Of a stretch of DNA of 28,198 bases, positions 2 to 28,198 are shown piece by piece. The first letter of the stretch is position 1. Each line of letters starts with the position of its first letter. The translations under genes were made by a program, and so were the position numbers. The stretch is from a virus. The stretch covers positions 1 through 28,198 of IMG/VR virus record IMGVR_UViG_3300009139_000007, one strand, 5' to 3'. The notes beneath the pieces are model-generated. The model worked only from the letters and a program-made list of their open reading frames with translations. It had not been told where the DNA came from and did not search any database.

Positions 2-2179
2 AAGTCGGGCGCTCCATCGGTCGAGGCTGACCCGGCGGGTCTCTCGATGGTGCTGGGTGACGCACTGCGCGATGTGGCGACCGCAGTTATCGCAGCGGCA
101 GGGACTGGGTATGCCGCGCTGGAGGTGTTGACTGTCGCCACGGGCACGGTGGTTGCTGGCAACACGGCCGCAACGATCCGGGTGGATACCGTGGGTGGAA
201 GCGGTGAGATTCTGACCTCTACGCTGACCGATGGCGGCGGCTATTCGATTGATGCCTCCTCGCCAGATACGGTCTCGGGTGGAGGGGGTTCGGGTGCTAC
301 GTTCACGCTCACGTTTGCAGCGATCCCGAATCGCATAGCCTTTGCAACAGGCGGCCAGGACAACTTCGGATTCTTCTTCCAGGGCTGGTCGAGTTTCCGG
401 CTGAACCTCGCAGACCTGCCATCCAATACGCGGGTGCTGACGGGTGTCCTGGCTGACCTCGCTCCAGAGATCATTGTCGACCTTGGCTACGGTGGAGACT
501 TCCCTGGCAAGGCGGCTGGTAACGCAGACAACGTCGGTTTTGACGTGCTGCGCTACGTGGACAACGCCGACCCGGCGCTGCTGATCGAAGGGGGCGCTAC
601 AGGTGATCGAGGCACGTTCCAGGAGATCGTCACCGAGGACGAAGACAGCAACAACGCCTGGGGTATCGCACGGATCCTGATCGCTGGATCCAAGGCGTTT
701 GAATTGCAGTTCGGGCTCCAGATCGGCTCGCTCGACTCTGATGCGTGGTTCGAGGACTCGGACTTCCAGCTCTACCTGAACGGGGACATCCCCGATGCCG
801 GCGCCGGGATCACCGCCGGCTCGATGGACATCGATTGCGTGGGCGACTCCGGATCCACCAACGTGGTCAACTTCGACAACTTCTTCATCCAGTCAGTGGG
901 CACGGTCGCCAACTGGACGATGAGTGCGGATCTCGATGAGGGTCAGTGGACCAACGGCCAGTTCGTTGACTGCGGTACGTTCGTCTTTCCCGCCCAGGAC
1001 GTCGGCCAGAAGTTCGTCAACGACGTCATCTTCGTCAACTGTGGCCAAATCACTTTCCTGTCGATGGACGCGGATGGTTGCATCTTCAACGGCACCACCG
1101 ATCCGCTGGGCGCGATCCTCTGGACCGCGAGCTCGGTCGAGGAGAACCAGGACAACTTCTCGTTCACCTCCGACGGAAGCGGGCACGCGATCGAGATCGC
1201 CCTGAACACGGCCAGCCTGACCACCTTCAACATCTCGGGCTACTCGGTGTCGGGCTACGAGACCGCCTCTGACGGCACGACCGGCAACACGGTGTTCATC
1301 GTGGACAATGCCCTGGACGGGGACGTCACGATCAACGTCACCGACGGTGAGGGCACCTTCAGCTACGAGCGTGCGGCCGGCTACACCGGCACAGTCTTAG
1401 TGATCCAGACGGTCAGCGTGACCCTGAGCGGCGTGACGGAAGGCACCCCCGTGAGTGTCATCGCCAATGAGAGCGTGGGCGGCGTCACTGACGGTGACGT
1501 GCTCGATGAGTCCTTTGCCGACGTCAACGGCCAGACCGGATTCAGCCACAACTACGAAGGCGACCTGGACGTGCTGATCAAAGCGCGCAACCAGGGTGTT
1601 GCGGTCGCGGCTATTGCGGATGACGGCGGCGTCTTCACCGACGAGACCCTGGAGGCCTCCGAGCCCACGGCCGACGACGTCAACATCTTCCCGGCCACGC
1701 CAGCCGATGACGATGCCTTCTACTTCGGCCACACCGAGAGGTTCAACCGGGTCAAGGTCGACATCACCGACGCCAACGGCGTGGGCTCCGTGGTGCAGTG
1801 GGAGTACTGGACTACCAATCCCGTGCCCAACTGGGTAACGATTAGCCTGAACAACGTCACCGGCAACATCCAATACGAGAACCTGGGCAACCTGATCATC
1901 GACTTCGGCACGATCCTTCAGATCGCGCAAAAGACCGGGCTCGCTTCAATGGCCCTCACCACGGTCAATGGCCAGGGACCGTTTTACTACGTTCGCTCAC
2001 GGCTCGCAGACTCGACCAACTCGAACCAGACTCGCGGGCGCACGATTACAATCGACGCAACACGCTATTTGGCCTTCCCTCAAGAAGGGGTCGCCGTCCG
2101 AACCATCATTTCTACAGGTCTAGCGGAGACAATCCCTTGGACTATCGATTCAATCTCAAAATTCGATCCAAGTGATTAG
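2..2179 (+). CDS. Large beta-rich virion protein, 5' end cut by window
   Basis: The frame is already open at base 2 with no stop before the first ATG at 47, so the gene probably begins outside the window. At least 710 residues are visible. I do not recognise a named family, but three regions can be described. Counting from the ATG at 47, residues about 30-90 are a Gly/Ser/Thr-rich segment of a type common in phage structural proteins. The middle (about 250-440) is a long run of short alternating beta-strand motifs rich in Asn, Asp and Gly, compatible with a beta-helix. The last 150 residues contain an Ala-Phe-Tyr-Phe-Gly-His motif followed by a WEYW...WVTIS...GPFYYVRSRL pattern that I associate with beta-sandwich modules of virion surface proteins. 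The next gene starts 12 bases downstream. A virion surface or fibre-like protein is an inference; no enzyme motif is visible. Confidence 0.8.
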   Translation, partial: KSGAPSVEADPAGLSMVLGDALRDVATAVIAAAGTGYAALEVLTVATGTVVAGNTAATIRVDTVGGSGEILTSTLTDGGGYSIDASSPDTVSGGGGSGATFTLTFAAIPNRIAFATGGQDNFGFFFQGWSSFRLNLADLPSNTRVLTGVLADLAPEIIVDLGYGGDFPGKAAGNADNVGFDVLRYVDNADPALLIEGGATGDRGTFQEIVTEDEDSNNAWGIARILIAGSKAFELQFGLQIGSLDSDAWFEDSDFQLYLNGDIPDAGAGITAGSMDIDCVGDSGSTNVVNFDNFFIQSVGTVANWTMSADLDEGQWTNGQFVDCGTFVFPAQDVGQKFVNDVIFVNCGQITFLSMDADGCIFNGTTDPLGAILWTASSVEENQDNFSFTSDGSGHAIEIALNTASLTTFNISGYSVSGYETASDGTTGNTVFIVDNALDGDVTINVTDGEGTFSYERAAGYTGTVLVIQTVSVTLSGVTEGTPVSVIANESVGGVTDGDVLDESFADVNGQTGFSHNYEGDLDVLIKARNQGVAVAAIADDGGVFTDETLEASEPTADDVNIFPATPADDDAFYFGHTERFNRVKVDITDANGVGSVVQWEYWTTNPVPNWVTISLNNVTGNIQYENLGNLIIDFGTILQIAQKTGLASMALTTVNGQGPFYYVRSRLADSTNSNQTRGRTITIDATRYLAFPQEGVAVRTIISTGLAETIPWTIDSISKFDPSD

Positions 2180-2191
2180 GAGTTACGCACA

Positions 2192-4801
2192 ATGACCACC
2201 CTCGACCTACTGGGAGGCGACTGGAAGATCTCGTTCGATGACGAGAAAGTGAACCCGCAGAGCGGCCAGGCCGGATTGCGCATGCTGGAGTACATCTCCG
2301 GGCCTGTGCGAACCACCAACGAGGTCTACTCAGACTTCGCGGCCAACTCGGACTTCTTCCAGGCGATGACCTTCAAAAACGGAATGACGCCAACGACGCC
2401 GAATGCGTACGTCATGGCGAACGACTACTTCATCTCGCGTACCTCGACGGAGTTCCTGAAGGAAGGAGCGCTGAACGCGGCCTGGTCGATGAAGACCGTC
2501 GGCGCCGACTCAGATACGGCCGGGCACGGTGTGCTCAAAGTGGCCTACTCGGGCGGCACCAACTTCAATGCCGGCGACATCGGTCGCAGGGTCACCCAGG
2601 GCGACTCGGGTGATGAAGGCACGCTGCTTGAGTTCGACCTGGATCCCGATGGCACTACCGTGGCCTGGATCCGACCGGACGATTCGACACCCAGCACGGG
2701 TGACACGTTCGACGGCACGGGCACGCTGGTCGCACTGGCGGGTACCGGCAGCACCACCAACTCCACGCCTGGCGTCTCGGGTGACACCCAGTTCTCCGCC
2801 ATCCAGGCGATTGGTGCCGTACCGACCGCGACCGAGGTCTACGTGATCCAGAACCGGGTCAAGCTGGCCGACGCCGCTACCGGCACGTTCCAATGGTGGG
2901 ACACCGATCAGGACGTCTCGCTGGGGATCATCTCGATCCTGGTGATGGTGCAGGACTCCGGTTCGCTGATCGCGGATGCTGACCTTGAGGTGTTCGCGCG
3001 GCGCTACACGGCGTTGTACGACAACTTCCAGTTGAACGTCGCCGCAGGGGGTTTCCAAGCCCTGCCGTTGGCCTCAAGCCCGGACCTGAACAACACGACA
3101 GGCTACCGGACCACAGGCACCCTGACGGGCGTCACGGGCACCTTCAATGTCGGTAATGGCATCTATGTCGGCGGCACCTGGGACACGGCCACGGTCAAGG
3201 GAGTGATCACCGAGACCAACGGCAACACCGACCTTGAGTACTACCTGGTTGGGGATCTGACCGACTTCTCGAACACCCAGGCGATCCAGGAGTACGACTT
3301 CGTCCTGGCCGCCGACGGTGACGCGGATGCCACGACCGGCACCGTCGCGGATAACCTGACCGGGCCGACAGACGGAGCTAGCGGAGAGGGCGCGACAGTC
3401 ACCCTCGCCCTGGGCCCGGTCACCAACGTCGATTTCGACGGGGATGGCGCGTTCGAGAACTACTCGATCACGGTCGATGCCCAGTCCGACGTGGGATTCG
3501 GCAAGGTCTACGAGCGCTTCAAGTACGTCACGCGCAGGGGTGCGGATGCGGCGGATCTATTCGGCGCGGGCACCAACGTACCTGGCGAGACGTTTCGTGG
3601 CCTGGAGGGCACCTTCGAGTACGACGCCAATACCGGCGCCATGGTCGACGGCGACGATGTGAGCATCACCGCCCGATCCGGGTTCTCGGCGCGAATGGTC
3701 GCGCAGTTGGACACACCAGCCGATTCGGTGGACACCCACATCACCTTGATGGACATCCAGACGTCGCTGACTTCCAGCCAGCCGGCCAATGATGACCTGA
3801 TCTCTGGTGAGGGTGGTGACGGCGTTGAGGACATTACCGTCCATGGCGCTGGCACCCTGGGGATCCAGCGCTTCACGGTCTCCAAGCAGTCGCCTCTGGG
3901 CACTTCAACAGGTACGGCGGTGTTCCTGACTCGGGGGGTGATCATCATCAATCCCGCGTCGGCCGACACCCAGGCCTACACGGCAACGCCGAATAACTCG
4001 GCCACGCCGCTCAACCCACCCAACACGATCAGCATCGGCTTCTCGAACACACGAGCAGGCGATAGGCTGATGATCGCCAGGGACGATGGCACGGCCGGCG
4101 TGATCGACCGTGACAAGTACGGTGGCATCGAGGCGCCTGGTGGCGCGTTCAACTCCCAGGACGACGTGATCATCCGGGTGGCGGGCACGATCGACTCGGA
4201 AGTGGTCCTGGCCAGCGTAGTACGGATCGTGGAAACCACACTCCTGGAGGAGCATCGCTACTACTACGATTCGGTCACCAAGGTCTCCAACGGTGAGTTC
4301 TCACTGACGGTACCGACGTCTGCGACGGGGACGGCGACATCGAGCTCGTCCACTCAGTTGATCGACACGGGGCAGTCGTTTGACGGCGCCACGCCGGTCG
4401 AGGTCGGGATGATGATCCGCAACACCTTCGGCGGTAAGACCACTCACGTCTGGGAGGTCACCGAGGTGGTGGACAGCGAGACGCTGAACGTCCGGGCGCT
4501 GTACGGCGGTGCTGACGACTGGGATTCGGGTGACACCTACATCATCAACGCGCTGATCCAGACCTACGCGACTGGCGACAACCTGTTCGACCTGATCCTC
4601 GACGTTGAGGAAGACATCGGGACCGACGGTTCGCCGGGAGTGGAGGGCAACACCTTGATCAAGATCACGTCTTCGCCCTGGGACGTCGCCGCAACCGCCC
4701 GACAGGGCAAGGTGATCCTGCCGTTCGAGATCAACCAGGCGGTCGGTGACAACTCGGTGACGATCACCGTGGTTCGTCAGGACGACACCATCGCAACGTA
4801 G
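2192..4801 (+). CDS. Large structural protein of unknown function (869 aa)
   Basis: A clear Shine-Dalgarno AGGAG overlaps the stop of the previous gene and lies nine bases before this ATG, which supports the start. The protein is acidic, almost free of Cys, and rich in Thr, Gly, Asp and Val throughout, as expected for an extended beta-structured virion protein. The N-terminus (MTTLDLLGGDWKISF) and the VFARRYTALYDNF segment near residue 270 resemble, from memory, a large uncharacterised family encoded close to terminase in environmental phages. Residues about 395-420 contain a DFDGDGAFENY run, similar to an Asp-rich calcium-binding loop; metal binding is untested. No transmembrane segment or signal peptide is seen. 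The position between another large beta-rich gene and the terminase block suggests a minor virion component. Confidence 0.85.
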   Translation: MTTLDLLGGDWKISFDDEKVNPQSGQAGLRMLEYISGPVRTTNEVYSDFAANSDFFQAMTFKNGMTPTTPNAYVMANDYFISRTSTEFLKEGALNAAWSMKTVGADSDTAGHGVLKVAYSGGTNFNAGDIGRRVTQGDSGDEGTLLEFDLDPDGTTVAWIRPDDSTPSTGDTFDGTGTLVALAGTGSTTNSTPGVSGDTQFSAIQAIGAVPTATEVYVIQNRVKLADAATGTFQWWDTDQDVSLGIISILVMVQDSGSLIADADLEVFARRYTALYDNFQLNVAAGGFQALPLASSPDLNNTTGYRTTGTLTGVTGTFNVGNGIYVGGTWDTATVKGVITETNGNTDLEYYLVGDLTDFSNTQAIQEYDFVLAADGDADATTGTVADNLTGPTDGASGEGATVTLALGPVTNVDFDGDGAFENYSITVDAQSDVGFGKVYERFKYVTRRGADAADLFGAGTNVPGETFRGLEGTFEYDANTGAMVDGDDVSITARSGFSARMVAQLDTPADSVDTHITLMDIQTSLTSSQPANDDLISGEGGDGVEDITVHGAGTLGIQRFTVSKQSPLGTSTGTAVFLTRGVIIINPASADTQAYTATPNNSATPLNPPNTISIGFSNTRAGDRLMIARDDGTAGVIDRDKYGGIEAPGGAFNSQDDVIIRVAGTIDSEVVLASVVRIVETTLLEEHRYYYDSVTKVSNGEFSLTVPTSATGTATSSSSTQLIDTGQSFDGATPVEVGMMIRNTFGGKTTHVWEVTEVVDSETLNVRALYGGADDWDSGDTYIINALIQTYATGDNLFDLILDVEEDIGTDGSPGVEGNTLIKITSSPWDVAATARQGKVILPFEINQAVGDNSVTITVVRQDDTIAT

Positions 4802-6145: not shown

Positions 6146-6246
6146 AGGGTGAACGAAATGAATGGCCAGGGATCCTTGTTCTTCTCGGCGTGGTGTTGCT
6201 GGTGATGTACGCGATCCCTGATCTCGTGGCTTGGATCTCTCAATGA
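6142..6246 (+). CDS. Very small single-span membrane protein (34 aa)
   Basis: A GTG start at 6142 overlaps the preceding stop as GTGA, and the ORF's own TGA overlaps the terminase ATG as ATGA. Two such junctions make translation of this 34-codon frame plausible. The peptide has a charged N-terminus (KGERNE) followed by about 20 hydrophobic residues (WPGILVLLGVVLLVMYAI), enough for one membrane span, and a short C-terminus ending WISQ. Small single-span proteins in phages include holins, antiholins and spanin-like or regulatory peptides, but nothing here decides between them, and no lysis enzyme lies nearby. It could instead exist mainly to couple translation of terminase to the upstream gene. 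The ribosome binding site is weak, so expression would depend on coupling. Confidence 0.5.
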   Translation: MKGERNEWPGILVLLGVVLLVMYAIPDLVAWISQ

Positions 6247-7880
6247 GTGACCTGGCCCAGGCTGTCGAATACGACCGGACCTACACGCTGGTCGCGGCCG
6301 AGAACATGCGCCGCGAGATGCGTCGGTTCGTCAAGGGCGCCTGGCCGATCGTCGAGCCCGGAGCTCCGTTCGTCAACGGCAAGCACATCGACGCGATCTG
6401 CGATCACCTGACGTTTGTGTCCCTGGGCGACATCGACGACCTGATCATCAACGTACCGCCACGGCACTCGAAGTCGACTATCTGCGCGGTCATGTGGCCG
6501 GCCTGGGAGTGGACCTGGCAGCCGCACATCCAGTGGCTGTTCGCGACCTACGCCCTGGACCTGACCCTGCGCGACTCGGTCAAGTGCCGCCGCCTGATCC
6601 AATCACCCTGGTACCAGGAGCGATGGGGCCACGTGTATCACCTCTCGGGTGACCTGAACCAGAAGAAACGATTCGACAACACCTCCAACGGATACCGGCT
6701 CGCGACCGCCGTGAAGGGTACGGCGACCGGAGAAGGGGGCGACAGGATCGTGGTCGACGATGCCCATAACATGAACGAGATCGAATCCGATCTGATCCGT
6801 GGATCGGTGATCAACTGGTGGCGGAACACCATGTCCACCCGGGCCAACAACCCCAAAAAGGCCGGCCGGGTCATCATTGCCCAGCGCGGTCACCACGTGG
6901 ATCTGCCCGGGCACTGCCTGGCCACCGGGGGCTGGGTTCACCTGAACATGCCGGGCTACTACCGCACCAAAACCAAGTGCCAGACCCATGCGCTGAAAAC
7001 CGGCCCGGCACGCGACCTGGAGCTCCAGCCGCCGGCCAACATCGCGCGCTTCACCCAGCCGCTCGAAGAAGATGAGCTGATCTGGGAGGACTGGCGGGAG
7101 CGCGAGAATCAACTGCTGACGCCGGCTCGATTCGGACCCAAGGAGATGAAGCGTCTCCAGCAGGAACTGACCGAGCGTGGCTTCGAGTCGCAGATCCAGC
7201 AGAACCCCTCCGCCGAGGGCGGCAACATCTTGAAGTCAAAGCACTGGCGCAAGTGGGAGGACGCCGGCAACATGCCGTCCTGCGAGATGGTGGTCCAGGT
7301 CTACGACACCGCGTTCGAGGAGGACGAGGAAGCCGATTACAGCGCCCGGACCACCTGGGGTATCTTCGAGTGGGTCGAAGGTGTCGAGTCCATCAAGGAC
7401 ATGCCCTGGCACCTGCGCTACAACAACCAGCCGCGCCTGTGCGCGATCATGCTGGAACGGATGGAAGAACGACTGTCGTTCCCTGACCTCCGCGAGGAGG
7501 CCAGGAAATCGTACGAAGAATGGAAGCCAGACCGGATCCTGATTGAGAAGAAAGCATCCGGACATTCCCTGGCCCAGGAGCTGCGTCGGGCGGATCTGCC
7601 CGTGACGCGGATCAAAGTCACCGATTCCAAGCACGCGCGCGCGCACGCCGCTGCCCTGGTGCTGGAGCGGGGATGTATCTGGTACGTGGATCGTCAGTGG
7701 TCACGTGATGTGATCCGCCAGTGCGGGGAGTTCCCCAGCGGCGAACACGATGATGTATTCGACACGGTGGTCATGGCCCTGCTGTGGCTGCGCCGACGCT
7801 GGGAGACTGAGTTCACCGATGAGGAAGATCCCAACGAGCTGAACCTCATGCCCAAGCGAACGAAACCAATTTACGGGTGA
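6243..7880 (+). CDS. Terminase large subunit (TerL)
   Basis: This is the DNA-packaging motor: an ATPase that drives DNA through the portal, joined to a nuclease that cuts the concatemer. I chose the ATG at 6243 (545 residues) because it forms an ATGA overlap with the upstream small ORF; a TTG four codons earlier is in frame but less likely. The ATPase domain has a Walker A-type motif VPPRHSKST at residues 71-79, a Walker B motif IVVDDAHN at 169-176 and a coupling-type motif IIAQR near 211. The segment SQIQQNP...GGNIL (about 316-330) is a linker signature of the phage terminase group typified by psiM2 ORF9. The RNase H-like nuclease follows, with likely catalytic acids Asp355, Glu435 and the Asp cluster 503-507 (EHDDVFD). 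All expected motifs are present, so it looks functional. Confidence 0.95.
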   Translation: MSDLAQAVEYDRTYTLVAAENMRREMRRFVKGAWPIVEPGAPFVNGKHIDAICDHLTFVSLGDIDDLIINVPPRHSKSTICAVMWPAWEWTWQPHIQWLFATYALDLTLRDSVKCRRLIQSPWYQERWGHVYHLSGDLNQKKRFDNTSNGYRLATAVKGTATGEGGDRIVVDDAHNMNEIESDLIRGSVINWWRNTMSTRANNPKKAGRVIIAQRGHHVDLPGHCLATGGWVHLNMPGYYRTKTKCQTHALKTGPARDLELQPPANIARFTQPLEEDELIWEDWRERENQLLTPARFGPKEMKRLQQELTERGFESQIQQNPSAEGGNILKSKHWRKWEDAGNMPSCEMVVQVYDTAFEEDEEADYSARTTWGIFEWVEGVESIKDMPWHLRYNNQPRLCAIMLERMEERLSFPDLREEARKSYEEWKPDRILIEKKASGHSLAQELRRADLPVTRIKVTDSKHARAHAAALVLERGCIWYVDRQWSRDVIRQCGEFPSGEHDDVFDTVVMALLWLRRRWETEFTDEEDPNELNLMPKRTKPIYG

Positions 7881-7883
7881 TAT

Positions 7884-10325
7884 ATGGCTGAAGTAGTGCA
7901 TCGATCGTCAGAGATGGTGGCCGACCCCGACCAGGGGATGGAGACCACGATCAACGGCGTCAAGATCTCGCGGCGAGGGCAGAATGCCGTTGTCGATTTC
8001 AACCCTGGCATGGATCGGACCTCGATGGAGGACTCCGACGAACACCAGGCCAACATCGCGGATGAGCTGTCCGAGCACGAGCAGGTGCTGATCGTCGCCA
8101 CGATGCTGGAGCAGTTCAAGGCCGACCTTGAATCACGCAGCTCCTGGCAGAACCGGAACGACCAGGCCATGGAGCTCCTTGGTCTGCGCAACGAGCCGCT
8201 CGACGACCTGCCCTTCGAGGGCGCCTCTGCGGTCACCTACCCGCTGATCGGAGAGGCCTGCGTGCAGTTCCAGGCCCGGGCGATCGAGGAGGTGTTCCCC
8301 AGTGGCGGGCCCTGCAAGACGCGGATCGTGGGCGAGAAAACCGATGAGAAGGTCGAGCAGGCCGAGCGCGTAGCGCAGCACATGAACTACCAGATGATGG
8401 ACCAGGACAAGGCCTATTTCTGGCACGTCGATCAGATGTTGTTCTGGCTGCCGCTGGCTGGATCCTGCTTCAAAAAGACCTACTACGATCCGATCTCCGA
8501 CATGGTGGTTTCGCGCCTGGTGCATGCCGGCGATTTCATCGTGCCGTACATGTGTACTGACCTGCGCACCGCTTCGCGCTACACCCACCGGATGTATCGG
8601 CCCGAGGAGGACATGAAGCGCCTGATGGCTTCCGAGTTCTATCGCACGGTGGAGCTGGAGAAGCCGGCCAACGCGGAGATCGATTCCGACGACATGCTCG
8701 ACTCCTCCCGGGAGATGGTGGACGAGGCCGACGATCGCCAGCCCAGCTTCCACGACGACGATTTCATCTACGAAGTGCTGGAGATGCACTGCGACCTCGA
8801 ACTTGAGATGGACCAGAAGACCTATCTGGACGACAAGGACGTGGTCGATATCGGTTTGCCGATGCCCTACATCGTGACCGTGGACAAGACCTCCGAGCAG
8901 TTGCTCTCGATCCGCCGCAACTGGCACGAGGACGACGAGCTGTTCACCAAGCGGATGTGGTTCACGCACTACAAGTACCTGCCTGGCTTGGGTTTCTACG
9001 GATTCGGCCTGCTGCACCTGATCGGATCGATCGCAGAGGCATCGACGGGCACCTTGCGCGCGCTCCTGGACGCGGCGGCCTACGCCAACCTCCAGGGCGG
9101 GTTCATGTCCGACGAGGCGCGGATCAACCCCGAGGACGCGACCATCACCCCGGGAACCTGGAAGCAGGTGAAGATGAGCGCCGAGGAGCTCCAGAAGGCC
9201 TTCTACACGCCACCGTTCAAGGAGCCCTCCGCAGCCCTGTCCCAGTTGTTTGGGATCTTGGTCGATACCGGGCGCCGGTTCGCGTCGATCACCGAGGAGA
9301 ACGTCGGAGACGCCCCCAACACGGGCCCAGTCGGCACGACCCTGGCGCTGATCGAGCAGGCCGGCAAGGTCTTCTCGGGCATCCACAGACGCCTGCACGT
9401 AGCCCAGGCGGAGGAATTCGAGCTGCGCGCCGAGCTCAATTTCGATTTCCTGGACGACGAGTACCCGTACCAGATCGAGAACAAGGACGTGGTGATCGCC
9501 AAGGCCGACTACGACGGGGCGGTAGATGTGATCCCGATCTCGGATCCCAACATCTTCTCGAACACCCAGCGCATCGCGCAGATCCAGACCGTGCTGGAGG
9601 TGGCCAAGGAATTCCCTGGCGAGGTGGATGTCCCGAAAGCGATCGACCGGCTGTTCCGCGCACTGAAGATCCCGGATCACGAGGAGCTCCTCCAGGGCAA
9701 GAGCGAGCAGCACCGGATGGATCCGATCGCGGAGAACATGCGCATGCTGACCATGGGCGGCGCCAAGGCCTACGTCGAGCAGGACCACGAGGCTCACATC
9801 GCGGTCCATATGAACTTCCTCCAGGGGCTCAACGAGGATGCGCTCAACGTCATGGGCATGGTGATGCAGGCCCACCTGGCCGAGCACTACGCCTACAAGT
9901 ACTTCAACGAAATGAACGCGCTGGCCGACGGTCAACTGCCACCGCCGACGTTCATGGACGGCGAGATGACGGAGGAAGATGAGCTGGATCCCGAGATGGA
10001 AGCGATGATCGCTCAGTTCGCGGCCCAGGCTCCGCCGATCCAGATCATGCCGCCTGACGAGGAAGGGCCCGACGAGGAGCAGAAGTCCTTCGATGCGGAG
10101 GAGAGTCGCAAAGAGCAGTCGTTCCACAACGAGGAGGCCCGCAAAGAAGCCGAGTTCGATGGAGATCAGCGCCGCACCAATCGCAGCGGTGAGCTCGACA
10201 ACCAGCGCAAAAATACCAGCTCCACAAATGAGGAGAGTCGCAAAGAGACCAGCGCGGCGGAGGAGCGTCAGCGCAAACGACGAGACGAGCGGGAGGCACG
10301 TCTGGCGAAGGACAGGGGTGAATAG
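7884..10325 (+). CDS. Portal protein with charged coiled-coil C-terminus (813 aa)
   Basis: Portal proteins form the dodecameric channel at one head vertex, through which terminase packs DNA and to which the tail attaches. The identification rests on the position immediately after TerL, the length typical of P22-like large portals, and recognisable core segments: NDQAMELLGLR...LPFEGASAVTYP near residues 90-120, WLPLAGSCFKKTYYDP near 190, and RYTHRMY near 230. The C-terminal 85 residues are almost entirely charged, with repeated EESRKE/EEARKE units, and are likely a long helical barrel or coiled coil. A GGGTGAT ribosome binding site precedes the ATG. The stop shares one base with the next GTG start. 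A 664-residue antisense frame over this gene is a codon-bias shadow. Confidence 0.93.
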   Translation: MAEVVHRSSEMVADPDQGMETTINGVKISRRGQNAVVDFNPGMDRTSMEDSDEHQANIADELSEHEQVLIVATMLEQFKADLESRSSWQNRNDQAMELLGLRNEPLDDLPFEGASAVTYPLIGEACVQFQARAIEEVFPSGGPCKTRIVGEKTDEKVEQAERVAQHMNYQMMDQDKAYFWHVDQMLFWLPLAGSCFKKTYYDPISDMVVSRLVHAGDFIVPYMCTDLRTASRYTHRMYRPEEDMKRLMASEFYRTVELEKPANAEIDSDDMLDSSREMVDEADDRQPSFHDDDFIYEVLEMHCDLELEMDQKTYLDDKDVVDIGLPMPYIVTVDKTSEQLLSIRRNWHEDDELFTKRMWFTHYKYLPGLGFYGFGLLHLIGSIAEASTGTLRALLDAAAYANLQGGFMSDEARINPEDATITPGTWKQVKMSAEELQKAFYTPPFKEPSAALSQLFGILVDTGRRFASITEENVGDAPNTGPVGTTLALIEQAGKVFSGIHRRLHVAQAEEFELRAELNFDFLDDEYPYQIENKDVVIAKADYDGAVDVIPISDPNIFSNTQRIAQIQTVLEVAKEFPGEVDVPKAIDRLFRALKIPDHEELLQGKSEQHRMDPIAENMRMLTMGGAKAYVEQDHEAHIAVHMNFLQGLNEDALNVMGMVMQAHLAEHYAYKYFNEMNALADGQLPPPTFMDGEMTEEDELDPEMEAMIAQFAAQAPPIQIMPPDEEGPDEEQKSFDAEESRKEQSFHNEEARKEAEFDGDQRRTNRSGELDNQRKNTSSTNEESRKETSAAEERQRKRRDEREARLAKDRGE

Positions 10326-10636
10326 TGGCCATTGGTAACCGGCAGGTCCGTGCCGCCCGTGAGTTCCTGCGCAAGCGGGGAATCAGAGGGATATCGCCGC
10401 GCCTATTTGTTCAGGGCTCCCAGGAGACTGGACTCAACTTTCGAGAACTGCTCGAATTTCTAGCAGAGGTAGCACACACGCATGACGACATTGACGGAGT
10501 TCGTACGGGACTTTCAAGGGGTCTGCGGGCAAGTCCAGGAAGACTTCGCCCGGAAGCTCGCCACCCGGAAAATCGGATCCTGGGAGGAGTATCAGCATAT
10601 GACCGGGCAAATCGAGGGGCTTCGTTTGGCGGCTGA
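10325..10636 (+). CDS. Small conserved-looking protein after the portal (103 aa)
   Basis: The GTG start shares one base with the portal stop (TAGTG) and has AGGGGTGA just upstream, so initiation is well supported. Residues 1-55 look like a real, mostly helical protein: basic N-terminus, a GIRGISPRLFVQGSQETGL stretch, then an amphipathic FRELLEFLAEVA helix. From about residue 57 the frame overlaps the next gene in another frame for 155 bases, and its composition turns Arg/Gly/Ser-rich, resembling a shadow reading. The functional part is therefore probably the first half, with the remainder tolerated or only loosely constrained. Function is unknown; a head-vertex accessory role is suggested only by position. 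Confidence 0.6.
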   Translation: MAIGNRQVRAAREFLRKRGIRGISPRLFVQGSQETGLNFRELLEFLAEVAHTHDDIDGVRTGLSRGLRASPGRLRPEARHPENRILGGVSAYDRANRGASFGG

Positions 10637-10814
10637 TTTGTCCTATCAACTGATGAAAAACAAGGACATGGCAGACGACGGCCTGGGTGACGGGAAAGAG
10701 CTGGGAGGTGTCGACGGCACGCCAGCGGGCGGCAAACCGCCACCACCACCTCCTCCACCTACCGGGGGTGGCAAGGGAAACAAGGGGAACAAGCGTGCGA
10801 GGGCGCGTTCATGA
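10482..10814 (+). CDS. Small helical protein with octaproline tract (110 aa)
   Basis: The in-frame TAG at 10461 leaves the ATG at 10482 as the only reasonable start; a weak AGAGG lies upstream. Residues 1-70 look helical and are well formed (LTEFVRDFQGV, WEEYQHMTGQIEGLRLAADLSYQLM). The last 40 residues are low-complexity: Gly/Asp-rich, then eight consecutive prolines encoded by bases 10737-10760, then a Gly/Lys/Arg-rich basic tail. Runs of proline stall ribosomes unless EF-P helps, which could slow translation just before the downstream co-chaperonin start; that link is inference. The TGA overlaps the next ATG as ATGA. The family is not firmly recognised; a small head or neck accessory protein is plausible from position. 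Confidence 0.75.
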   Translation: MTTLTEFVRDFQGVCGQVQEDFARKLATRKIGSWEEYQHMTGQIEGLRLAADLSYQLMKNKDMADDGLGDGKELGGVDGTPAGGKPPPPPPPPTGGGKGNKGNKRARARS

Positions 10815-11185
10815 CCGAGACCAAGTTCATACCGCCAGAGCGCGACCTGGTCATCCAGATGCCCAAGCCACTGATGTGGAAGATCCTGGTGCGTCCCTTC
10901 AAGACGCCGAGAAGGTCCGACGGTGGCATCGAGTACACCGACGAGACGATCGAAGGTCAGAAGTGGCTGACGGTTGTGGGGCAGGTCGTGGACATGGGCG
11001 AGCAGGCCTACCAGTCACCGAAACTGGCTGATAGCTTCAACCCGGGCCTGGAATCGTGGGTGCTGTACGGCAAGTACGCCGGGCAGCGAATCTTGCTGTC
11101 CGACGGCCGTGAATTCGTGATCATGAACGATGATGACGTGCTCGCGGTGGTCGACGATCCAAAGATGTATCACCGAGTGGGGTAG
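10811..11185 (+). CDS. GroES/Cpn10-like phage co-chaperonin
   Basis: The 124-residue product reads as a chaperonin-10 fold. Residues 22-31 (MWKILVRPFK) match the first core strand of GroES. Residues 31-55 (with SDGGI at 36-40) occupy the place of the mobile loop that docks onto GroEL. VVGQVVDMG (55-63) matches the GEVLAVG strand. Residues 82-115 (SWVLYGKYAGQ, EFVIMNDDDVLAVV) follow the conserved core of bacterial co-chaperonins closely, including the terminal DDDVLAVV. Such proteins, like T4 gp31, cap host GroEL so that it can fold the capsid protein. Here the gene lies between the portal and scaffold genes and starts inside an ATGA overlap, fitting that role. The mobile-loop tripeptide reads Ile-Glu-Tyr rather than the hydrophobic Ile-Val-Leu of E. 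coli GroES, and the protein is about 25 residues longer than host GroES. Confidence 0.85.
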   Translation: MTETKFIPPERDLVIQMPKPLMWKILVRPFKTPRRSDGGIEYTDETIEGQKWLTVVGQVVDMGEQAYQSPKLADSFNPGLESWVLYGKYAGQRILLSDGREFVIMNDDDVLAVVDDPKMYHRVG

Positions 11186-11239: not shown

Positions 11240-12301
11240 ATGCCAAGAGAGCACCTGGAAGAAGAAATCGTCTTTGAGGATCTCCGTGGAAACGCGGAAG
11301 ATGCCCAGACCGTTGTAGAAGTGGACCTCGATGCCGATGGCGATCCTGCCATCACTCGACGTCCGGCACGCATCGATAGCGGTGGCGACGATGACAACGA
11401 TGATATGTGGGGAGACGACGACGAGTCTCGTCGCAGAGCCCCCAAATCAGACGACTCCCGCGATGACGATCCCGATGACGACGCTGATGGTCGTGACCGG
11501 GAAGACGATTTTCATGCGAAATTCGATAAGCGACTGAAGCGGGAGCGCCGCGCCAAAGAGGCGGAACGCACCCGTGCCGATGAAGCTGAGAAGCGAGCCG
11601 TGAAAGCCGAGCGCGATCTCAAGAAAGCCAGATTGGCCGACAGCGGAACGAATTTCGACAAGCAGATCAGTGACCTTGAGGGCGAGCTCGAACAGGCAAT
11701 CGAGGACGGGGATACGAAGAAGCACGTGCGCCTCACGTCGCAACTTCAGTCTCTGAACGCCGAAAAGGTAGCTGCGAAGTACGTGGTAGATGATGACGAT
11801 GACGATCCCGCAGATCGCACGCCGACTCCGCCGCGAGCCGATCCGGAACGAGTGGCTATGGCCAACGACTGGAAGTCAGAGAACCGGAGCTGGTATCAGC
11901 GCCGTGGCTTCGAGCGTGCGACCAGAATCGCGAACGAACTGGACGACGACGTTCACGCCGAGGGTTTCGACGCCCGAGACGAGGACTACTACGAGGAGCT
12001 GGACAAACGGGTTCGCGAACGCCTACCCGAATTGTTCGATAAGAGTGGCGATCTGAAAACCCCAGGACGTCGGGGCCGCAACCAGAAACGAAAGGACCGG
12101 GGCCGGACCCCCGTTGCTGATACTGGTGATGGTGCTGACCGGGGTCGACGTCGCCGCTCTGCTTCCTCCTCTCGCGTTGAATTGGACTCAGACGATTTCG
12201 CCAACATGGAACGGTTCGGGCTCAACTCCCGCGACCCGGAAGTGCTGAAGGAATACGCGCTGAACAAGAGACAACGCATGCAGGAGGAAGCTGATGCCTG
12301 A
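11240..12301 (+). CDS. Putative scaffolding protein (353 aa)
   Basis: The product is extremely charged and nearly without hydrophobic core in its first half. Residues 1-90 are Asp-rich, about 90-180 form a predicted coiled coil (KRLKRERRAKEAERTRADEAEKR region), and a DDDDDD cluster lies near 190. The C-terminus alternates basic runs (GRRGRNQKRKDRGR, RGRRRR) with a final helical segment ending NKRQRMQEEADA. An acidic, coiled-coil protein with a basic C-terminal patch just upstream of the capsid gene is the classic profile of a phage scaffold, which binds the inner face of the capsid protein during assembly and then leaves. No serine protease motif or separate prohead protease gene is visible. 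AGGA lies about ten bases before the ATG. Assignment is by composition and context, because scaffold sequences are poorly conserved. Confidence 0.75.
   Translation: MPREHLEEEIVFEDLRGNAEDAQTVVEVDLDADGDPAITRRPARIDSGGDDDNDDMWGDDDESRRRAPKSDDSRDDDPDDDADGRDREDDFHAKFDKRLKRERRAKEAERTRADEAEKRAVKAERDLKKARLADSGTNFDKQISDLEGELEQAIEDGDTKKHVRLTSQLQSLNAEKVAAKYVVDDDDDDPADRTPTPPRADPERVAMANDWKSENRSWYQRRGFERATRIANELDDDVHAEGFDARDEDYYEELDKRVRERLPELFDKSGDLKTPGRRGRNQKRKDRGRTPVADTGDGADRGRRRRSASSSRVELDSDDFANMERFGLNSRDPEVLKEYALNKRQRMQEEADA
12282..12287 (+). promoter_or_regulatory. Ribosome binding site inside the end of the scaffold gene
   Basis: AGGAGG lies six bases before the ATG at 12294, within the last codons of the scaffold-like gene. 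It decides between the 186-residue frame starting there and a competing shadow frame at 12307. Confidence 0.8.
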
Positions 12302-12854
12302 ATGGAATGAGTCAAGACTCTCGCCGCGTAGAAGCGCTGAGAGCACTCACGAGACTGAGTCTCGCGAGCACGTCTCGCATGTGGATGCGACGACGGAGGA
12401 ACGTGCCACCCACCGAGAACGTCCGACTGGTCCTTGGATCAGAGCAACCAGCCTCGAAGCCCCTCCCGCCCGGGACGGGTACGAGCAGCGCTGGATTCGG
12501 ATTTCGATTCGAGGTGAGGATGACCCCAGAAACGTCAATATGCGCATGAGAGAAGGCTGGCGCCCCCGTGACATCACTACGATCGGGGACGAGTGGCAGA
12601 TTCTCGCAGTACGTGCCGACGCGAAAGGGGGTCACTTCGTCGTGGATGACCTCATGCTTTGCGAGATGCCGATGGAATTGTTCCAGGCCCGTCAGGACTA
12701 CTACAGTGAGCTTACTGAGTCCCAGATGGCAGCCGTGGAGCATGACCTCGAAGACGCGCAGGTAGATGGTCACCGCATCCAGAGACAACATAGGTCTTCG
12801 GTGTCCCATCCCGCGCGAGTAGTTGGTCGCAGGGTAGAGGCCCGCAATGACTGA
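12294..12854 (+). CDS. Conserved phage protein between scaffold and capsid (186 aa)
   Basis: The start overlaps the scaffold stop by eight bases and has a strong AGGAGG. Residues 1-65 are polar, Arg/Ser/Glu-rich and probably disordered. The core is residues about 75-155: NVNMRMREGWRPRD, a short GDEWQILAV strand, HFVVDDLMLCEMP, then an ELFQARQDYYSEL helix. From memory, this order (a line stating a residue range, a gated 'motif-MP' strand and an 'ARxxYYxEL' helix) is typical of a conserved hypothetical type found next to capsid genes in many environmental phages, with no known function. It is probably a head-assembly or virion protein by context. Confidence 0.8.
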   Translation: MPEWNESRLSPRRSAESTHETESREHVSHVDATTEERATHRERPTGPWIRATSLEAPPARDGYEQRWIRISIRGEDDPRNVNMRMREGWRPRDITTIGDEWQILAVRADAKGGHFVVDDLMLCEMPMELFQARQDYYSELTESQMAAVEHDLEDAQVDGHRIQRQHRSSVSHPARVVGRRVEARND

Positions 12855-12872: not shown

Positions 12873-13457
12873 ATGGCTAACACCGACGCACCGTTTGGGT
12901 TCCGCCCAAACTCGCATCAAGCCGGTGGTACCCCTGCTCGCGTAGGCGGATATAACATCGCGTTTGATTACGCGACCGCGATCTTCTCTGGCCAGCTTGT
13001 CCGTAGTTCGGGCAGCGCACGAGAGATCATTTCCGTTCCTGACGAGGCAGACGACTTCCTGCTGGGTATCTTCGCTGGCTGCCAATACGTCAACGATGCC
13101 AACGACATCATCTGGAGCCAGTTCTGGCCCGGTGTGGCGCTGGCTGACTCGAACACGATAGTCGAGTGCTGGGTCTACGACGATCCGCAACTTGAGTATA
13201 TCGCTCAGATCAGCACCCTCCTGGAGGCTGATATCGGACTGCTCTATGCGATCGACCAGACTGCCACGCCAGGCAATACACGGACAGGTCGCTCCGGGGC
13301 ATTCATCGACCACGCCGTCACCTCAACTCCCAAGGTCCGTATCACGGGTCTGGCGGAGAACATCGGTGGCATTTTCCCGTCCGAGTACGGGGCGTTCGCG
13401 AAGGTGCGGTGTGTACCGCTCCAGCACGAGCGAAACAACTACGTAACTGCGATCTAA
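12873..13457 (+). CDS. Putative capsid decoration or head protein (194 aa)
   Basis: The N-terminus MANTDAPFGFRP followed by a Gly-rich turn is a recognisable opening of small head proteins that sit immediately upstream of HK97-fold capsid genes in many phages. The body is beta-rich, with LLGIFAGCQYV, QFWPGVAL and ECWVYDDPQLEY segments at regular spacing; only two cysteines are present. A decoration, cementing or capsid-associated role is the usual guess for this family but has not been shown here. A GAGG lies upstream of the ATG. The downstream capsid gene starts 15 bases after the stop, so the two are likely made together in high amount. Confidence 0.75.
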   Translation: MANTDAPFGFRPNSHQAGGTPARVGGYNIAFDYATAIFSGQLVRSSGSAREIISVPDEADDFLLGIFAGCQYVNDANDIIWSQFWPGVALADSNTIVECWVYDDPQLEYIAQISTLLEADIGLLYAIDQTATPGNTRTGRSGAFIDHAVTSTPKVRITGLAENIGGIFPSEYGAFAKVRCVPLQHERNNYVTAI

Positions 13458-13472: not shown

Positions 13473-14381
13473 ATGGCTGTAATGAATCGATCTACCTTCC
13501 GGCGGCAGTTGCAGGAAGGCCTGAACACGGTCTTTGGGATGGAGTACAAGCGCTACTCACGCGAGTGGGCGCCCGTCTTTGAGGTCACCAGGTCACGCAA
13601 AGCGTACGAGGAGGACGTGCTGTTGGCAGGTCTGGCAGGAGCGCCAGTCAAGCCAGAGGGCGCGCCGATAACGTACGACAGCGGTGGAGAGGCATACACC
13701 TCACGGTACGTGCATGAAACCATCGCGCTTGCGTTCTCGCTCACCGAGGAGGCCGAGGAGGACAACCTCTACGGCGACATCGGTGCCAAGTATGCCCGCG
13801 CCCTGGCACGCTCCATGGTTCACACCAAGGAAGTCAAAGGCGCAGCGGTCCTGAACAACGGCTTCGACACTGCCTTCCCAGGTGGTGACGCGGAACCGCT
13901 GTACTCGACTGGTCACCCTCTCTGGGGTGGCGGTACCCAATCGAACCGTTTCGCCACGGCAGCGGATCTGTCGGAGACATCGTTGGAGGAGGCGTCCATC
14001 GCCATCTCCAAATTCGTGGACGAGCGTGGTATTCCAACCGCGATCTCGGCCATGAAGATGATCATTCCGCCGGATCTCTGCTTCGTCGCGGAGCGGATCC
14101 TGAAGTCCCAGTACCGACCGGGTACGGCAGACAACGACATCAACGCCCTGCGCTCAAAGGGCAAGATTCCGGGTGGAGCTCACGAAAACCACCGTCTGAC
14201 CAACCCCGACAACTGGTTCCTCATCACCGACTGCATGGACGGCCTGAAGCACATGATTCGGGTCAACATCCAGCGCGGTGTCGAGGGCGACTTCGAGACA
14301 GGCAACATGCGATACAAGAGCCGGGAGCGTTACAGCTTCGGGTGGTCTGACTATCGCGGAAGCTACGCCTCCGGATCGTAG
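13473..14381 (+). CDS. Major capsid protein, probable HK97 fold
   Basis: The 302-residue product carries segments I recognise from a large capsid family of environmental phages: SLTEEAEEDNLYGD near residue 90, ALARSMVHTKEVKGAAVLNN near 110, STGHPLWGGGTQSN near 145, and MIIPPDLCFVAERILKSQ near 195, followed by a TNPDNWFLITD strand. The pattern of an E-loop-like N-terminal region, a long spine-like helix and beta-strands fits the HK97 fold. It has no long N-terminal delta domain, which agrees with a separate upstream scaffold and with the absence of a visible prohead protease. A GGGGGA element precedes the ATG. The co-chaperonin two kilobases upstream is likely needed for folding this protein (inference). 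Confidence 0.92.
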   Translation: MAVMNRSTFRRQLQEGLNTVFGMEYKRYSREWAPVFEVTRSRKAYEEDVLLAGLAGAPVKPEGAPITYDSGGEAYTSRYVHETIALAFSLTEEAEEDNLYGDIGAKYARALARSMVHTKEVKGAAVLNNGFDTAFPGGDAEPLYSTGHPLWGGGTQSNRFATAADLSETSLEEASIAISKFVDERGIPTAISAMKMIIPPDLCFVAERILKSQYRPGTADNDINALRSKGKIPGGAHENHRLTNPDNWFLITDCMDGLKHMIRVNIQRGVEGDFETGNMRYKSRERYSFGWSDYRGSYASGS

Positions 14382-24055: not shown

Positions 24056-27000
24056 ATGGCCCTCGAAGTAAAGGAACGCCTGCCCGACTGGCACCAGGAG
24101 AACTTTGAACGGTACCGAATGAACCAGTTGACGCAGATCCTGGAGCGTCGGTTCCTGACGATCGAGGAGGCGTTGAACGATATCGAGGTCGTGAATCGCG
24201 GCCTCTTTGGCAACCAGAACTTCGCGCCGACTGATCATACGCACGGCGAAATCGAAATCACCGATCTGGGCGAAGGCGAATTTTACCTGTCGCAGGACTT
24301 CCTCACCAACGTCATGCGCATCAGCGACATCTGGGACGTCAATGACTCGGGGATCCAGAACAACTACATCCTGAAGTGGGCTGCCTCTGCGAATGGCGGT
24401 ACGGGCGGCTGGATCGTTTCTGACGTAGCCACGATCAGTGCTTCCCTGGCTGGGTTGTCCGACACCGATATCAGTACGCCGATCCTGGATGGATCGTTGC
24501 TGGTCTATGACCAGGGGAGCAACCAGTGGGTCAACGCCGGCCAGGGCTCGCTGCCCTTCGTGCAGAAGTCTGGCGACACGATGGAGTCCCTGGGGCACCT
24601 GAACTTCCCGTCGAGCACTGAGACACGCTACGGAGATTCCTTGCAAGGCCGGATCGTCCATGACGGGATCTTCCGGATGATCAGCGCGTCGGGTGGCGGT
24701 GGCTTCCAGGTGCTCACGAACGATATCGATCTCCAGATCGATGTGGCGAATGTCGGGCCCGTGAGACTGGGCTACAGCGGAGACCAACGGTTCTCGACGC
24801 TCCTGGCCGGCATCGAAATAACTGATGGTACGGACGTCGCGACTCTCGACTACACGACCGGCGACTTGCGCCTGGCCAGTGACGCAACCAGCGGGCTGGT
24901 GGAGTTGTACGGTGCAGACTCGGGTGATGTCGTGACCCCACTGGCGGTCTTCGATCCCGATGGTTCATCACAGTTGTATTTCAACGGCGACGTCAAGCTG
25001 GAGACCTTCATCGAGGGGATTGAAGTTCGGGGCGACCTGAACAACGCGATCAACCAAGACCAAGACGCGACCTTGGATTTCTATCGACAGGACGGCACGT
25101 TGCTGATCGGCAAGCTGGGTTGGACGGGTGATGGTGCTGCACAGAGCAGACACCTGACCATTGAGAACCTACTCAGCAACGGAGAACTGCATCTCGCGGC
25201 AACGAGCGCGGGCGGGCTTCGACGGACCTTGGTCGAGTTGCGTGGCGGTGGGCCGGTGGTGATGAGATACCAAGACGGAGATCGCTTTGCGACTACTCCG
25301 CAAGGCATCGAACTCATGGGCGATTCGTTCCGTACCGAACTCACGTTCTCCCACCAAAACACGGTGGGTGATCAGAACCCGCAGTTCTACATCGAGACCG
25401 ACAACACGATAGCGGATGAGTCAGTCGACTTCTTCTCCTTCGAGGATGACGCGCAGTTCCGGTTCCATGGGCAGGACAGCGGTGGCGCTCAGTCCATTCT
25501 GGCGCTCATGGACCCCAACGCATCAGTCGATTTGTTTTACGACGGCACGCTTGCGTTCAGCACTAGCGCACGTGGAGCGCTTGTTACTGGGTCGTTGGAT
25601 GCTGACGACCCGACTCTGTTCTTCCGAGAAGGTTCGGATGACCGGGCGATGATGTTCTACGACATTGGAGCCAATGCACTCGTTGCCCAAACGATTGAGC
25701 CCCTCTCTGGATTTCAGATCATCCTTCGCTCGGCATCCGATAACCCTGAGTTCGGGGCTCTGTGGGTCGCGGATGGCGCGTTCTTCCTATACCACGATGG
25801 CCAACTCAAGATTGAGTCCAGAGACGACGGGATCAATGTCTACGGAAGCATAGACACCGTACCTACCGCTGGCGGGGCCCAAGACACCTACATATCGTTG
25901 CTCACCAGACTCGGAGCGGATGCTGGGTACCTCGGGTTCCTGAACGAGGAGCCGCTGACCCTTCGGAGCAATGTCTGGGGCGGCGACTTCCACATCGAAG
26001 CCACAAAGGCCGCTGGCTCAGTCGCATCTCTCCTGTTGGGTGATCCCGATCTTGGGGTTACGACGTATCACAACGGCAGCGCAGTGGCGCGCACTCTTGC
26101 TGCTGCTTCGGGTGGCTTGGAGGCAAACAACACCTCAACAGGTGCTGGCTTTGAGCGTGTCCTGACCACGAGCGACCTTAGCGGTGGTACCGGAGATGCT
26201 ATCTCAGACGCTGATGGTGATACACAAATTCAAGTAGAAGAAACAGCCGACGAGGACATCATTCGATTCGATCTCGGTGACAACATCACTGGCTTCCCAG
26301 CACTGGCGAACGCGCTACTTTTTTCTGCTGGTCAATTCACCTTGGGTCTTCCTGCTGCCGATGTGGCAACAACAATCGGTGGCCCGATCAGTTTGACATC
26401 TGGTGCGGGTAACACGACTGGGCTGGGTGGCGATATCAATATACTTACTGGCGACGGTGGACAGGTGTCCGTTGCAGGTGGTGACTTTATCGTAGAAGTT
26501 GGTACGGGCGCTGGCACAGGCGCAAGCGGAAACTTCTTTATCAATACCCTAACTGGTGCTGGCCCTCAAGGAGGGTCGGTACAGTCCACAGAATCAGCCG
26601 GACTTGTAGCAATATACGGTATTAACTCGGTCGCCAATCCAGCAGGAAATGTTGAACTTTGGGGAGGGTACGCCTCTGCTGGCGGTGGAGTAGGTGGTGA
26701 TCTAATCCTTTGGGGTGGAGGCGGGGGTGGGGCTGCCATTGCTGGTGACGCCATACTTATTGGTGGCGGAGCTACTACTACACCCGGCGATGCCATGGTC
26801 CTTGGTGGCGCTGCCTCCACAGTTGGAGTTGGCGGGGAGGCAGTTATAACTGGAGGTGCGGGTAGCGGAGCTGCTCGTGGCGGTCATGTAGTTATTACAG
26901 GTGGCCCTTCAGGCGCTGGAGCAACTGGCATTGGTGGTTCTGTCTTCATTACTGCCGCAGATTCATCTGCTACAAATGACGACGGTGGCGATATCCTCCT

Positions 27001-28198
27001 GACACCGGGTGCTGGAGCTGGATCAGGTGATGATGGCGCAATTATCATTGGTCAAACAACAGAGCCATTAGCCCCCCTAACAAACAAACTTTACAACCTT
27101 GCAGGCGCACTCACTTGGAATGGCACTGACTTGACGGCCAGCGTCATCCCAGACCCCCTGACCCTTGGTCAAATCATCCTTACCAGCAACAATGTTCTTG
27201 ATCTGACTGACACTGACATTGCGCTCAACGTCGGCGCAGCAGACCCGGACGCTGACGACCACATTGAGTTTGGGCTGTTCTCTGGTGCCGGGTTGGGTAT
27301 TCAGGCGAAGGCAACCGACTCGACAGTTCAGACGCTGAATATCCAGCCGTTGGGTGGAACTGTGAACATGGGGCCTCGTGCATCTGCGACTGTGGCAGGG
27401 GGTTCCGTTCTCCGACATGCCAATGGTTCGGGTGATGGTGGCAACATCATCGAGACGACGCTCGAAGGGATGATCCTTGAAGGTCGGGCTGGAACAAACA
27501 CCATTTTCGATTTCCATACGGCGTCCGGTGGTGCCCTCGCCATGCGGATGATCAAATTCGGTGCGTTCTTCCACTTCGAGGGGGAGACGCCCGGTCTGGA
27601 GTTCAAGTTCATATCGAAGAACAACGGTGGCAATACGCGACAACTGCTGCACATGGACCCCGACTTCAACACCCAAATTTATCACGCACAGAGTCAGGCT
27701 ATCGTCATTGAGACGCACACGCCTGCAACGGGTGGCGCATTCGTCAACAACACCGAGACTGGTGCAGGGCTGGAGCGCGTCCTGACCACGAGCGATCTGG
27801 GTGGTACTGCTGCGCTCGACGATTTGACCGACGTCACGCTTGCGGCTGAAGCGACTGGCGACATGCTCTACAAGTCAGCGGGCGACTGGTTGAACACGGC
27901 GAAGCTGTCGTGGAATGACGCAGGCTCGATCCTGACGATCAACCACACGTCAGGCAACGATCCGACGCTGGAGTTCAACGAGGCCGGGGTCGAGGTCGCG
28001 TCGATTCTTTGGGAGGGTGGATTCAACCAGCTCTGGATTCAGACAGAGACCGCAGACGATGAGATCGCATTCTTTGTGGGTGGGCAGACCCAGGCGCAGT
28101 TCGGCAGACCCAACGGGGAACAGCTTCTTTATCACGACGGCGCGCAGGTGTTCAACACCATCCCCGAGGGTATAGAGCTTCGCGGCACCGTCGCCACC
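24056..28198 (+). CDS. Giant repetitive tail fibre protein, 3' end beyond window
   Basis: The ATG directly follows the hub stop (TAGATG). I read the frame through to the last base without meeting a stop: 1381 codons, incomplete. Residues 1-60 are helical and likely attach to the virion. A THGEIEITDLGE motif and a KSGDTM motif (both common in fibres) follow. From about 240 to 690, modules of 70-100 residues repeat, each ending with a 'LYxDGxxxxxTxxxGIxVxG' signature (seen near bases 24770, 24971, 25261, 25532, 25787, 26063 and again at 28127). Near 26200 comes an ISDADGDTQIQVEE motif, then a Gly-rich beta-solenoid (residues 778-999). After it, non-repetitive and module-type sequence resumes. 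No chaperone domain or enzyme motif is visible so far. It is the main candidate for host recognition. Confidence 0.9.
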   Translation, partial: MALEVKERLPDWHQENFERYRMNQLTQILERRFLTIEEALNDIEVVNRGLFGNQNFAPTDHTHGEIEITDLGEGEFYLSQDFLTNVMRISDIWDVNDSGIQNNYILKWAASANGGTGGWIVSDVATISASLAGLSDTDISTPILDGSLLVYDQGSNQWVNAGQGSLPFVQKSGDTMESLGHLNFPSSTETRYGDSLQGRIVHDGIFRMISASGGGGFQVLTNDIDLQIDVANVGPVRLGYSGDQRFSTLLAGIEITDGTDVATLDYTTGDLRLASDATSGLVELYGADSGDVVTPLAVFDPDGSSQLYFNGDVKLETFIEGIEVRGDLNNAINQDQDATLDFYRQDGTLLIGKLGWTGDGAAQSRHLTIENLLSNGELHLAATSAGGLRRTLVELRGGGPVVMRYQDGDRFATTPQGIELMGDSFRTELTFSHQNTVGDQNPQFYIETDNTIADESVDFFSFEDDAQFRFHGQDSGGAQSILALMDPNASVDLFYDGTLAFSTSARGALVTGSLDADDPTLFFREGSDDRAMMFYDIGANALVAQTIEPLSGFQIILRSASDNPEFGALWVADGAFFLYHDGQLKIESRDDGINVYGSIDTVPTAGGAQDTYISLLTRLGADAGYLGFLNEEPLTLRSNVWGGDFHIEATKAAGSVASLLLGDPDLGVTTYHNGSAVARTLAAASGGLEANNTSTGAGFERVLTTSDLSGGTGDAISDADGDTQIQVEETADEDIIRFDLGDNITGFPALANALLFSAGQFTLGLPAADVATTIGGPISLTSGAGNTTGLGGDINILTGDGGQVSVAGGDFIVEVGTGAGTGASGNFFINTLTGAGPQGGSVQSTESAGLVAIYGINSVANPAGNVELWGGYASAGGGVGGDLILWGGGGGGAAIAGDAILIGGGATTTPGDAMVLGGAASTVGVGGEAVITGGAGSGAARGGHVVITGGPSGAGATGIGGSVFITAADSSATNDDGGDILLTPGAGAGSGDDGAIIIGQTTEPLAPLTNKLYNLAGALTWNGTDLTASVIPDPLTLGQIILTSNNVLDLTDTDIALNVGAADPDADDHIEFGLFSGAGLGIQAKATDSTVQTLNIQPLGGTVNMGPRASATVAGGSVLRHANGSGDGGNIIETTLEGMILEGRAGTNTIFDFHTASGGALAMRMIKFGAFFHFEGETPGLEFKFISKNNGGNTRQLLHMDPDFNTQIYHAQSQAIVIETHTPATGGAFVNNTETGAGLERVLTTSDLGGTAALDDLTDVTLAAEATGDMLYKSAGDWLNTAKLSWNDAGSILTINHTSGNDPTLEFNEAGVEVASILWEGGFNQLWIQTETADDEIAFFVGGQTQAQFGRPNGEQLLYHDGAQVFNTIPEGIELRGTVAT
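26126..26194 (+). repeat. Fibre direct repeat, copy 1
   Basis: This encodes NNTSTGAGFERVLTTSDLSGG inside the fibre gene (read as two parts: NNTSTGAGFE and RVLTTSDLSGG). It shares the 9-base start AACAACACC and a 17-base identical core (GTCCTGACCACGAGCGA) with the second copy 1620 bases downstream. It ends the upstream modules and immediately precedes the lower-GC cassette. Confidence 0.85.
26387..27052 (+). repeat. Glycine-rich beta-solenoid repeat region inside the fibre gene
   Basis: The encoded residues 778-999 form about 14 short repeats of roughly 14-18 residues. Each has a 3-5 residue hydrophobic strand followed by a Gly/Ala/Ser/Thr-rich turn and usually Gly-Gly-Asp or a similar step: ISLTSGAG, INILTGDGG, LILWGGGG, AILIGGGA, AMVLGGAA, AVITGGAG, VVITGGPS, VFITAADS, ILLTPGAG. 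This pattern predicts a stacked beta-solenoid shaft. The DNA is lower in GC than the flanks (29 of 60 bases are G or C at 26581-26640, hand count) and favours T- and A-ending codons (ggt, gct, act, ctt). Confidence 0.8.
27746..27811 (+). repeat. Fibre direct repeat, copy 2
   Basis: This encodes NNTETGAGLE followed by RVLTTSDLGGTA. It is in the same frame as copy 1 and exactly 1620 bases (540 codons) away. The following sequence (LDDLTDVTLAAEATGDMLYK) is a typical fibre linker and leads into a new module. Confidence 0.85.

Follow-up and report, generated by a model that had tools for sequence, protein, structure and literature searches.

We found that the open reading frame at positions 10811-11185 (plus strand, 124 aa) is a phage-encoded co-chaperonin of the GroES type (Cpn10), that it lies inside the head-building module, and that its linkage to one lineage of major capsid proteins (MCPs) is near-strict, fraying below 36% MCP identity. 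The window, i.e. the whole stretch of DNA analysed (28,198 nt), matches a section of a 74,480-bp viral contig at 99.96-99.99% identity. The protein probably serves as a phage-specific lid for the GroEL of the host and thereby supports the folding of phage head proteins.

The family match was far above chance. Pfam Cpn10 (PF00166) was hit with an E-value of 1.2e-7 and 32.1 bits (cut-off 21.1), the match covering the whole domain (residues 19-114 of the protein, positions 3-93 of 93 in the profile), and PHROG 3188, 'co-chaperonin GroES', with an E-value of 4.7e-11. Solved co-chaperonins were matched both by the single sequence (best E-value 1.5e-9, a Cpn20 chain) and by the profile (best E-value 8.5e-15). 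The Cpn10 identity and its core motifs had been predicted from the sequence alone; KILVRPF (residues 24-30), GKYAG (87-91) and DDDVLAVV (107-114) were all found, and the profile search that had been proposed as a check was significant.

An AlphaFold2 model of the protein (41 sequences) reached a pLDDT of 86.8 and a pTM of 0.76. When the model was compared with the PDB by Foldseek, all 33 matches at E <= 0.001 were Cpn10 or Cpn20 co-chaperonin chains; for 8wuc, the GroES of H. thermoluteolus bound to GroEL, the Foldseek E-value was 1.2e-6 and the VIA Z-score 10.8. The original prediction had named the lack of a GroES beta-barrel and mobile loop as grounds for its rejection, and the contrary was obtained, namely a predicted fold of the GroES type. 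T4 gp31 was also among the structural matches (Z 8.2 for gp31 in the GroEL complex, and 7.7). Alcohol dehydrogenase and quinone oxidoreductase domains appeared in the VIA list as well (Z about 6-7). A GroES-like fold is known in these enzymes, and it is this fold that was matched, so they do not represent a rival assignment.

All genes of the head module described here are encoded on the plus strand. The terminase large subunit (6231-7880; PHROG 38, E 1e-71; Pfam Terminase_6C) is followed by a portal protein of 813 aa (7884-10325; PHROG 1216, E 1.3e-31), and two small overlapping ORFs lie between portal and Cpn10. For the 110-aa ORF called immediately upstream of Cpn10 (10482-10814), Pfam and PHROG searches gave nothing above cut-off. 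Downstream, an acidic and highly charged ORF of 353 aa (11240-12301; pI 4.7, 28% Asp+Glu; PHROG 28737) occupies the scaffold position and would encode the scaffold protein. It is followed by an ORF of 186 aa (12294-12854; PHROG 36003, E 3.9e-14) and one of 194 aa (12873-13457). The latter had no sequence-family match, and its AlphaFold2 model (pLDDT 85.5) gave no Foldseek E-value below 0.001; the best structural matches of the model were capsid cement or stabilising proteins (HFTV1, TW1, T1, Sf11, Pam3 and lambda gpD), which makes it a probable cement protein of the lambda gpD kind. This cement-like ORF directly before the MCP is also kept in relatives. The MCP itself (13473-14381, 302 aa, 33.4 kDa) was recognised by Phage_capsid_4 (E 4.2e-10), by PHROG 371 and by alignment with annotated MCPs; no solved relatives were found by sequence with the MCP profile.

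The original prediction placed the gene in the head operon and had it overlapping its upstream neighbour. Both points held: Cpn10 has the portal gene upstream and the scaffold-like, cement-like and MCP genes downstream, and its start shares an ATGA of 4 nt (10811-10814) with the stop of the preceding ORF. As for the claim that it stands directly before the scaffold and capsid genes, this is true of the scaffold-like ORF, which adjoins, but the MCP follows only as the fourth gene after Cpn10, at a distance of about 2.3 kb. The position in the operon suggests late expression of Cpn10. Promoter or terminator patterns above chance were not detected around the gene, nor were Rfam matches in the 28,198-nt window.

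Two side observations concern the surroundings. Two phages (L003, 8361-9323; L008, 8400-9287) have the scaffold-position ORF labelled as 'kinesin-like' or 'kinesin motor domain-containing', probably as an artefact of coiled coils. The window also has very large ORFs of structural appearance (725+, 869 and 1381+ aa), located at 2-4801 and 24056-28198; a PHROG search of the 869- and 1381-aa ORFs gave no match, and the last one (1381+ aa) contains many repeated segments and may encode a tail fibre or other appendage.

Relatives were gathered via the MCP, because the single Cpn10 protein, short and divergent as it is, found only its identical copy when used as a query. This retrieval yielded 80 viral contigs, of which 45 extended upstream of the MCP for 3.2 kb or more, and Cpn10 was present in every one of these 45, its stop codon located 2.2-2.5 kb before the MCP. 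Among phage records, 13 contained a detectable Cpn10 homologue, always below 60% identity. An MCP homologue of at least 36% identity was present in 18 phage records; Cpn10 was seen in all 15 of those inspected, a set without three Caulobacter phages close to phage GB2A (RW, RLK and KcrB). In eight annotated loci with flanks, GroES was followed by ORFs of ~280-350, ~155-175 and ~180-220 aa and then by the MCP, with the portal upstream of GroES wherever it was annotated. This arrangement is common to HTVC023P-type pelagiphages, roseophages CRP-901/902 and freshwater cyanophages.

In annotated phages, Cpn10 was found upstream of the MCP down to 36-45% MCP identity. Carriers include Alcaligenes phage QDWS535 (45%) and Caulobacter phage GB2A (42%), a cultured phage whose gp089c (L131, 5311-5742) is labelled 'hypothetical', matches PF00166 with an E-value of 3.5e-9 and occupies the same head-module position as Cpn10 of the window. 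At greater distances the pattern frays: no Cpn10 was detected within the 16 kb examined of MW202601, a distant MCP relative, and in vir526 (27% MCP identity) groS is located upstream of the terminase, outside the portal-to-MCP interval. With Methanomicrobiales given as its host, vir526 is presumably an archaeal virus; it has a homologous MCP as well as groS (L134, 1027-1383).

The linkage to one MCP family throughout the lineage makes a role in the folding of head proteins plausible. The main rival explanation is a general takeover of host GroEL, in which the lid would replace GroES and either help many phage proteins or redirect GroEL, with no dedicated client in the head; the position in the head operon would then give nothing more than late expression. 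The exceptional location of groS in vir526 would fit such a takeover, and so would the ability of T4 gp31 to replace GroES in general folding (PMC6318259). Moreover, among the head proteins only the portal clearly exceeds the size of the usual cage, and it would not fit at all. However, the constant position of Cpn10 ahead of the MCP in 45/45 contigs, and the persistence of this linkage to 36-45% MCP identity, speak against a general takeover, and we regard it as improbable.

The codons of the mobile-loop region, from Val27 at the strand end to Gly57, span 10895-10978 (29 residues, versus 25 in cellular GroES), and those of Gly-Gly-Ile-Glu-Tyr, the GroEL-contact part (E. coli G23-L27) according to alignment with E. 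coli GroES and relatives, span 10922-10936, both on the plus strand. On E. coli numbering, the tripeptide of the window is thus I25-E26-Y27. In 51 phage sequences, the window included, position 25 was always aliphatic or Met (Ile 47, Leu 2, Val 1, Met 1), and this contact Ile together with the preceding Gly-Gly is among the most conserved positions of the phage family. Position 26 varied freely (Val 14, Ile 12, Glu 11, Ala 8, Leu 4, His 1, Tyr 1), while position 27 was Leu, Ile, Val, Phe, Tyr or Met in 44 sequences and Thr, Lys or Arg in seven. Glu in the tripeptide is therefore not peculiar to the window phage, as IEL, IEV, IEM and IEY together account for 11/51. No Glu was found at position 26 in 31 Desulfobacterota GroES sequences (III or IYI), a control that comprises one phylum plus E. 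coli.

In E. coli GroES, I25D or L27D abolish the interaction with GroEL while V26D does not, and I25A and L27A likewise abolish it (PMC5575113). Because V26D does not abolish binding, Glu at 26 falls at a site that tolerates an acidic side chain in E. coli GroES, and the key Ile is kept. Reading Gly-Gly-Ile-Glu-Tyr as the mark of an altered contact or of a divergent host chaperonin, as originally proposed, is consequently weak. As a counterpoint to the lid reading, position 27 is Tyr here, and Thr, Lys or Arg in seven of the 51 sequences, while L27A and L27D abolish binding by E. coli GroES (PMC5575113). Measured from V12 to G38, the loop region had 25 residues in each of the 32 cellular GroES and 28-30 in 50/51 phage copies; the one exception is a gut sequence outside the Cpn10 family of the window. 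With 18 residues, the roof region of the window Cpn10 equals that of cellular GroES; many relatives have a longer one.

In a lesser rival explanation, the Cpn10 fold would have lost its work with GroEL and would serve instead in the structure or assembly of the procapsid or of the portal vertex. The position in the head module is compatible with such a role, as are the N-terminal extensions, the family-specific C-terminal tail, which runs past the point where GroES ends (11156-11182 in the window) and in which one Pro hardly varies (47 sequences; Pro117 in the window protein), and Lys, Arg or Thr at position 27 of some tripeptides. In addition, Gly-Gly-Ile is lost in one distant relative: Cpn10 of QDWS535 (L130, 3531-3872) has a strongly altered loop, possibly with Leu-Gly-Ile-Asp-Leu in its place. 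Against this, a protein independent of GroEL would not need the conserved contact Ile and Gly-Gly. The mobile loop is also kept and lengthened in 50/51 copies, and this explanation appears the least likely of those considered.

The dN/dS ratios of Cpn10 in eight close pairs were 0.11-0.30, and therefore the gene has been kept by purifying selection. Distances of Cpn10 and MCP were correlated (Mantel r = 0.79, 0/2000 permutations), which shows long joint inheritance and is not a proof of physical dependence; the co-variation may reflect only linkage and shared descent. Fifty phage Cpn10 copies formed one clade versus 32 cellular GroES (support 0.997), the cellular sample being narrow (31 of one phylum, Desulfobacterota, and E. 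coli).

A Desulfuromonadales MAG (L097, L098, L099) includes a 65-kb contig with a relative of the window phage (MCP 77% identical); the same MAG holds a bacterial groES-groEL pair. Phage contigs are not reliably assigned to bins, so Desulfuromonadales is no more than a weak hint as to the host of the window phage. The 74-kb contig contains no tRNA that could point to a host.

To return to the lid for host GroEL, we infer heptamer formation, GroEL binding and the identity of the client as follows. The co-chaperonin would be made together with the head proteins, its heptamer would act as a lid with the mobile loop binding host GroEL, and GroEL capped in this way would fold phage head proteins, the likeliest client being the MCP (33 kDa) or another head protein encoded next to Cpn10 or the MCP. 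GroEL of the host would be needed because no match to Cpn60 (PF00118) was found on the 74,480-bp contig, which may be incomplete.

Phages with their own GroES are known, and among the clients the capsid protein of T4 is the best established. Cpn10 of the window is a divergent new member of these already reported genes. Three points are added here: across a wide range of hosts the gene is linked near-strictly to a single MCP lineage, the longer loop with a free middle position occurs throughout the family, and a cultured Caulobacter phage has an unrecognised Cpn10; in a limited literature search, we found no earlier statement of the MCP-lineage linkage, the longer loop or the GB2A copy. Phages of this Phage_capsid_4/Mu gpT-like MCP lineage infect SAR11, Roseobacter, cyanobacteria, Caulobacter and Alcaligenes. 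More speculatively, the lineage might be obligately dependent on a dedicated co-chaperonin despite an MCP of ~33 kDa, Cpn10 having been remodelled into a client-specific lid by a loop four residues longer, the free middle position and the conserved C-terminal tail; we put this forward tentatively, as a possibility that is somewhat doubtful. Cpn10 goes with one small-MCP lineage across distant hosts, and if this linkage reflects need, cultured models such as GB2A could be used to learn why some coats require a private co-chaperonin without the 'larger cage' reason.

When compared with bacterial GroES, the window Cpn10 shares the beta-barrel fold, the Gly-Gly-Ile loop and the closing DDxLAVV-like strand. 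It differs by Trp-Lys/Arg instead of Asp-Arg near the N-terminus, by extensions at both ends, by the loop region of 29 rather than 25 residues and by its separate clade. In HTVC023P-type pelagiphages, GroES has been reported as one of 13 core genes (PMC9599517), and CRP-901-type genomes have it marked as well (PMC10149686). The GroES proteins of these pelagiphages and of roseophages CRP-901/902 (PHROG 3188) are homologous to that of the window (32-37% identity), and the gene order is the same, i.e. GroES, charged ORF, two ORFs and MCP, downstream of the packaging genes. Their tripeptides are LIL, VIL, ILF and ILL versus IEY in the window protein, whose N-terminal extension is shorter than in the pelagiphage copies.

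The likeness to T4 gp31 that had been proposed is supported: both are phage co-chaperonins of the Cpn10 fold with a lengthened loop (in gp31, a mobile loop of 22 residues versus 16; PMC6318259), no phage Cpn60 found and a head protein as the proposed client. Identity is only 6-8% in structural alignments, and the roof region is kept in the window Cpn10, unlike in gp31, which is without roof loops (PMC6318259). The explanation offered for gp31 is that gp23, at about 56 kDa, is slightly too big for the normal cage (PMC6318259). As a further counterpoint to the lid reading, this 'larger cage' reason fails to carry over to the window phage, because its MCP has only 33 kDa.
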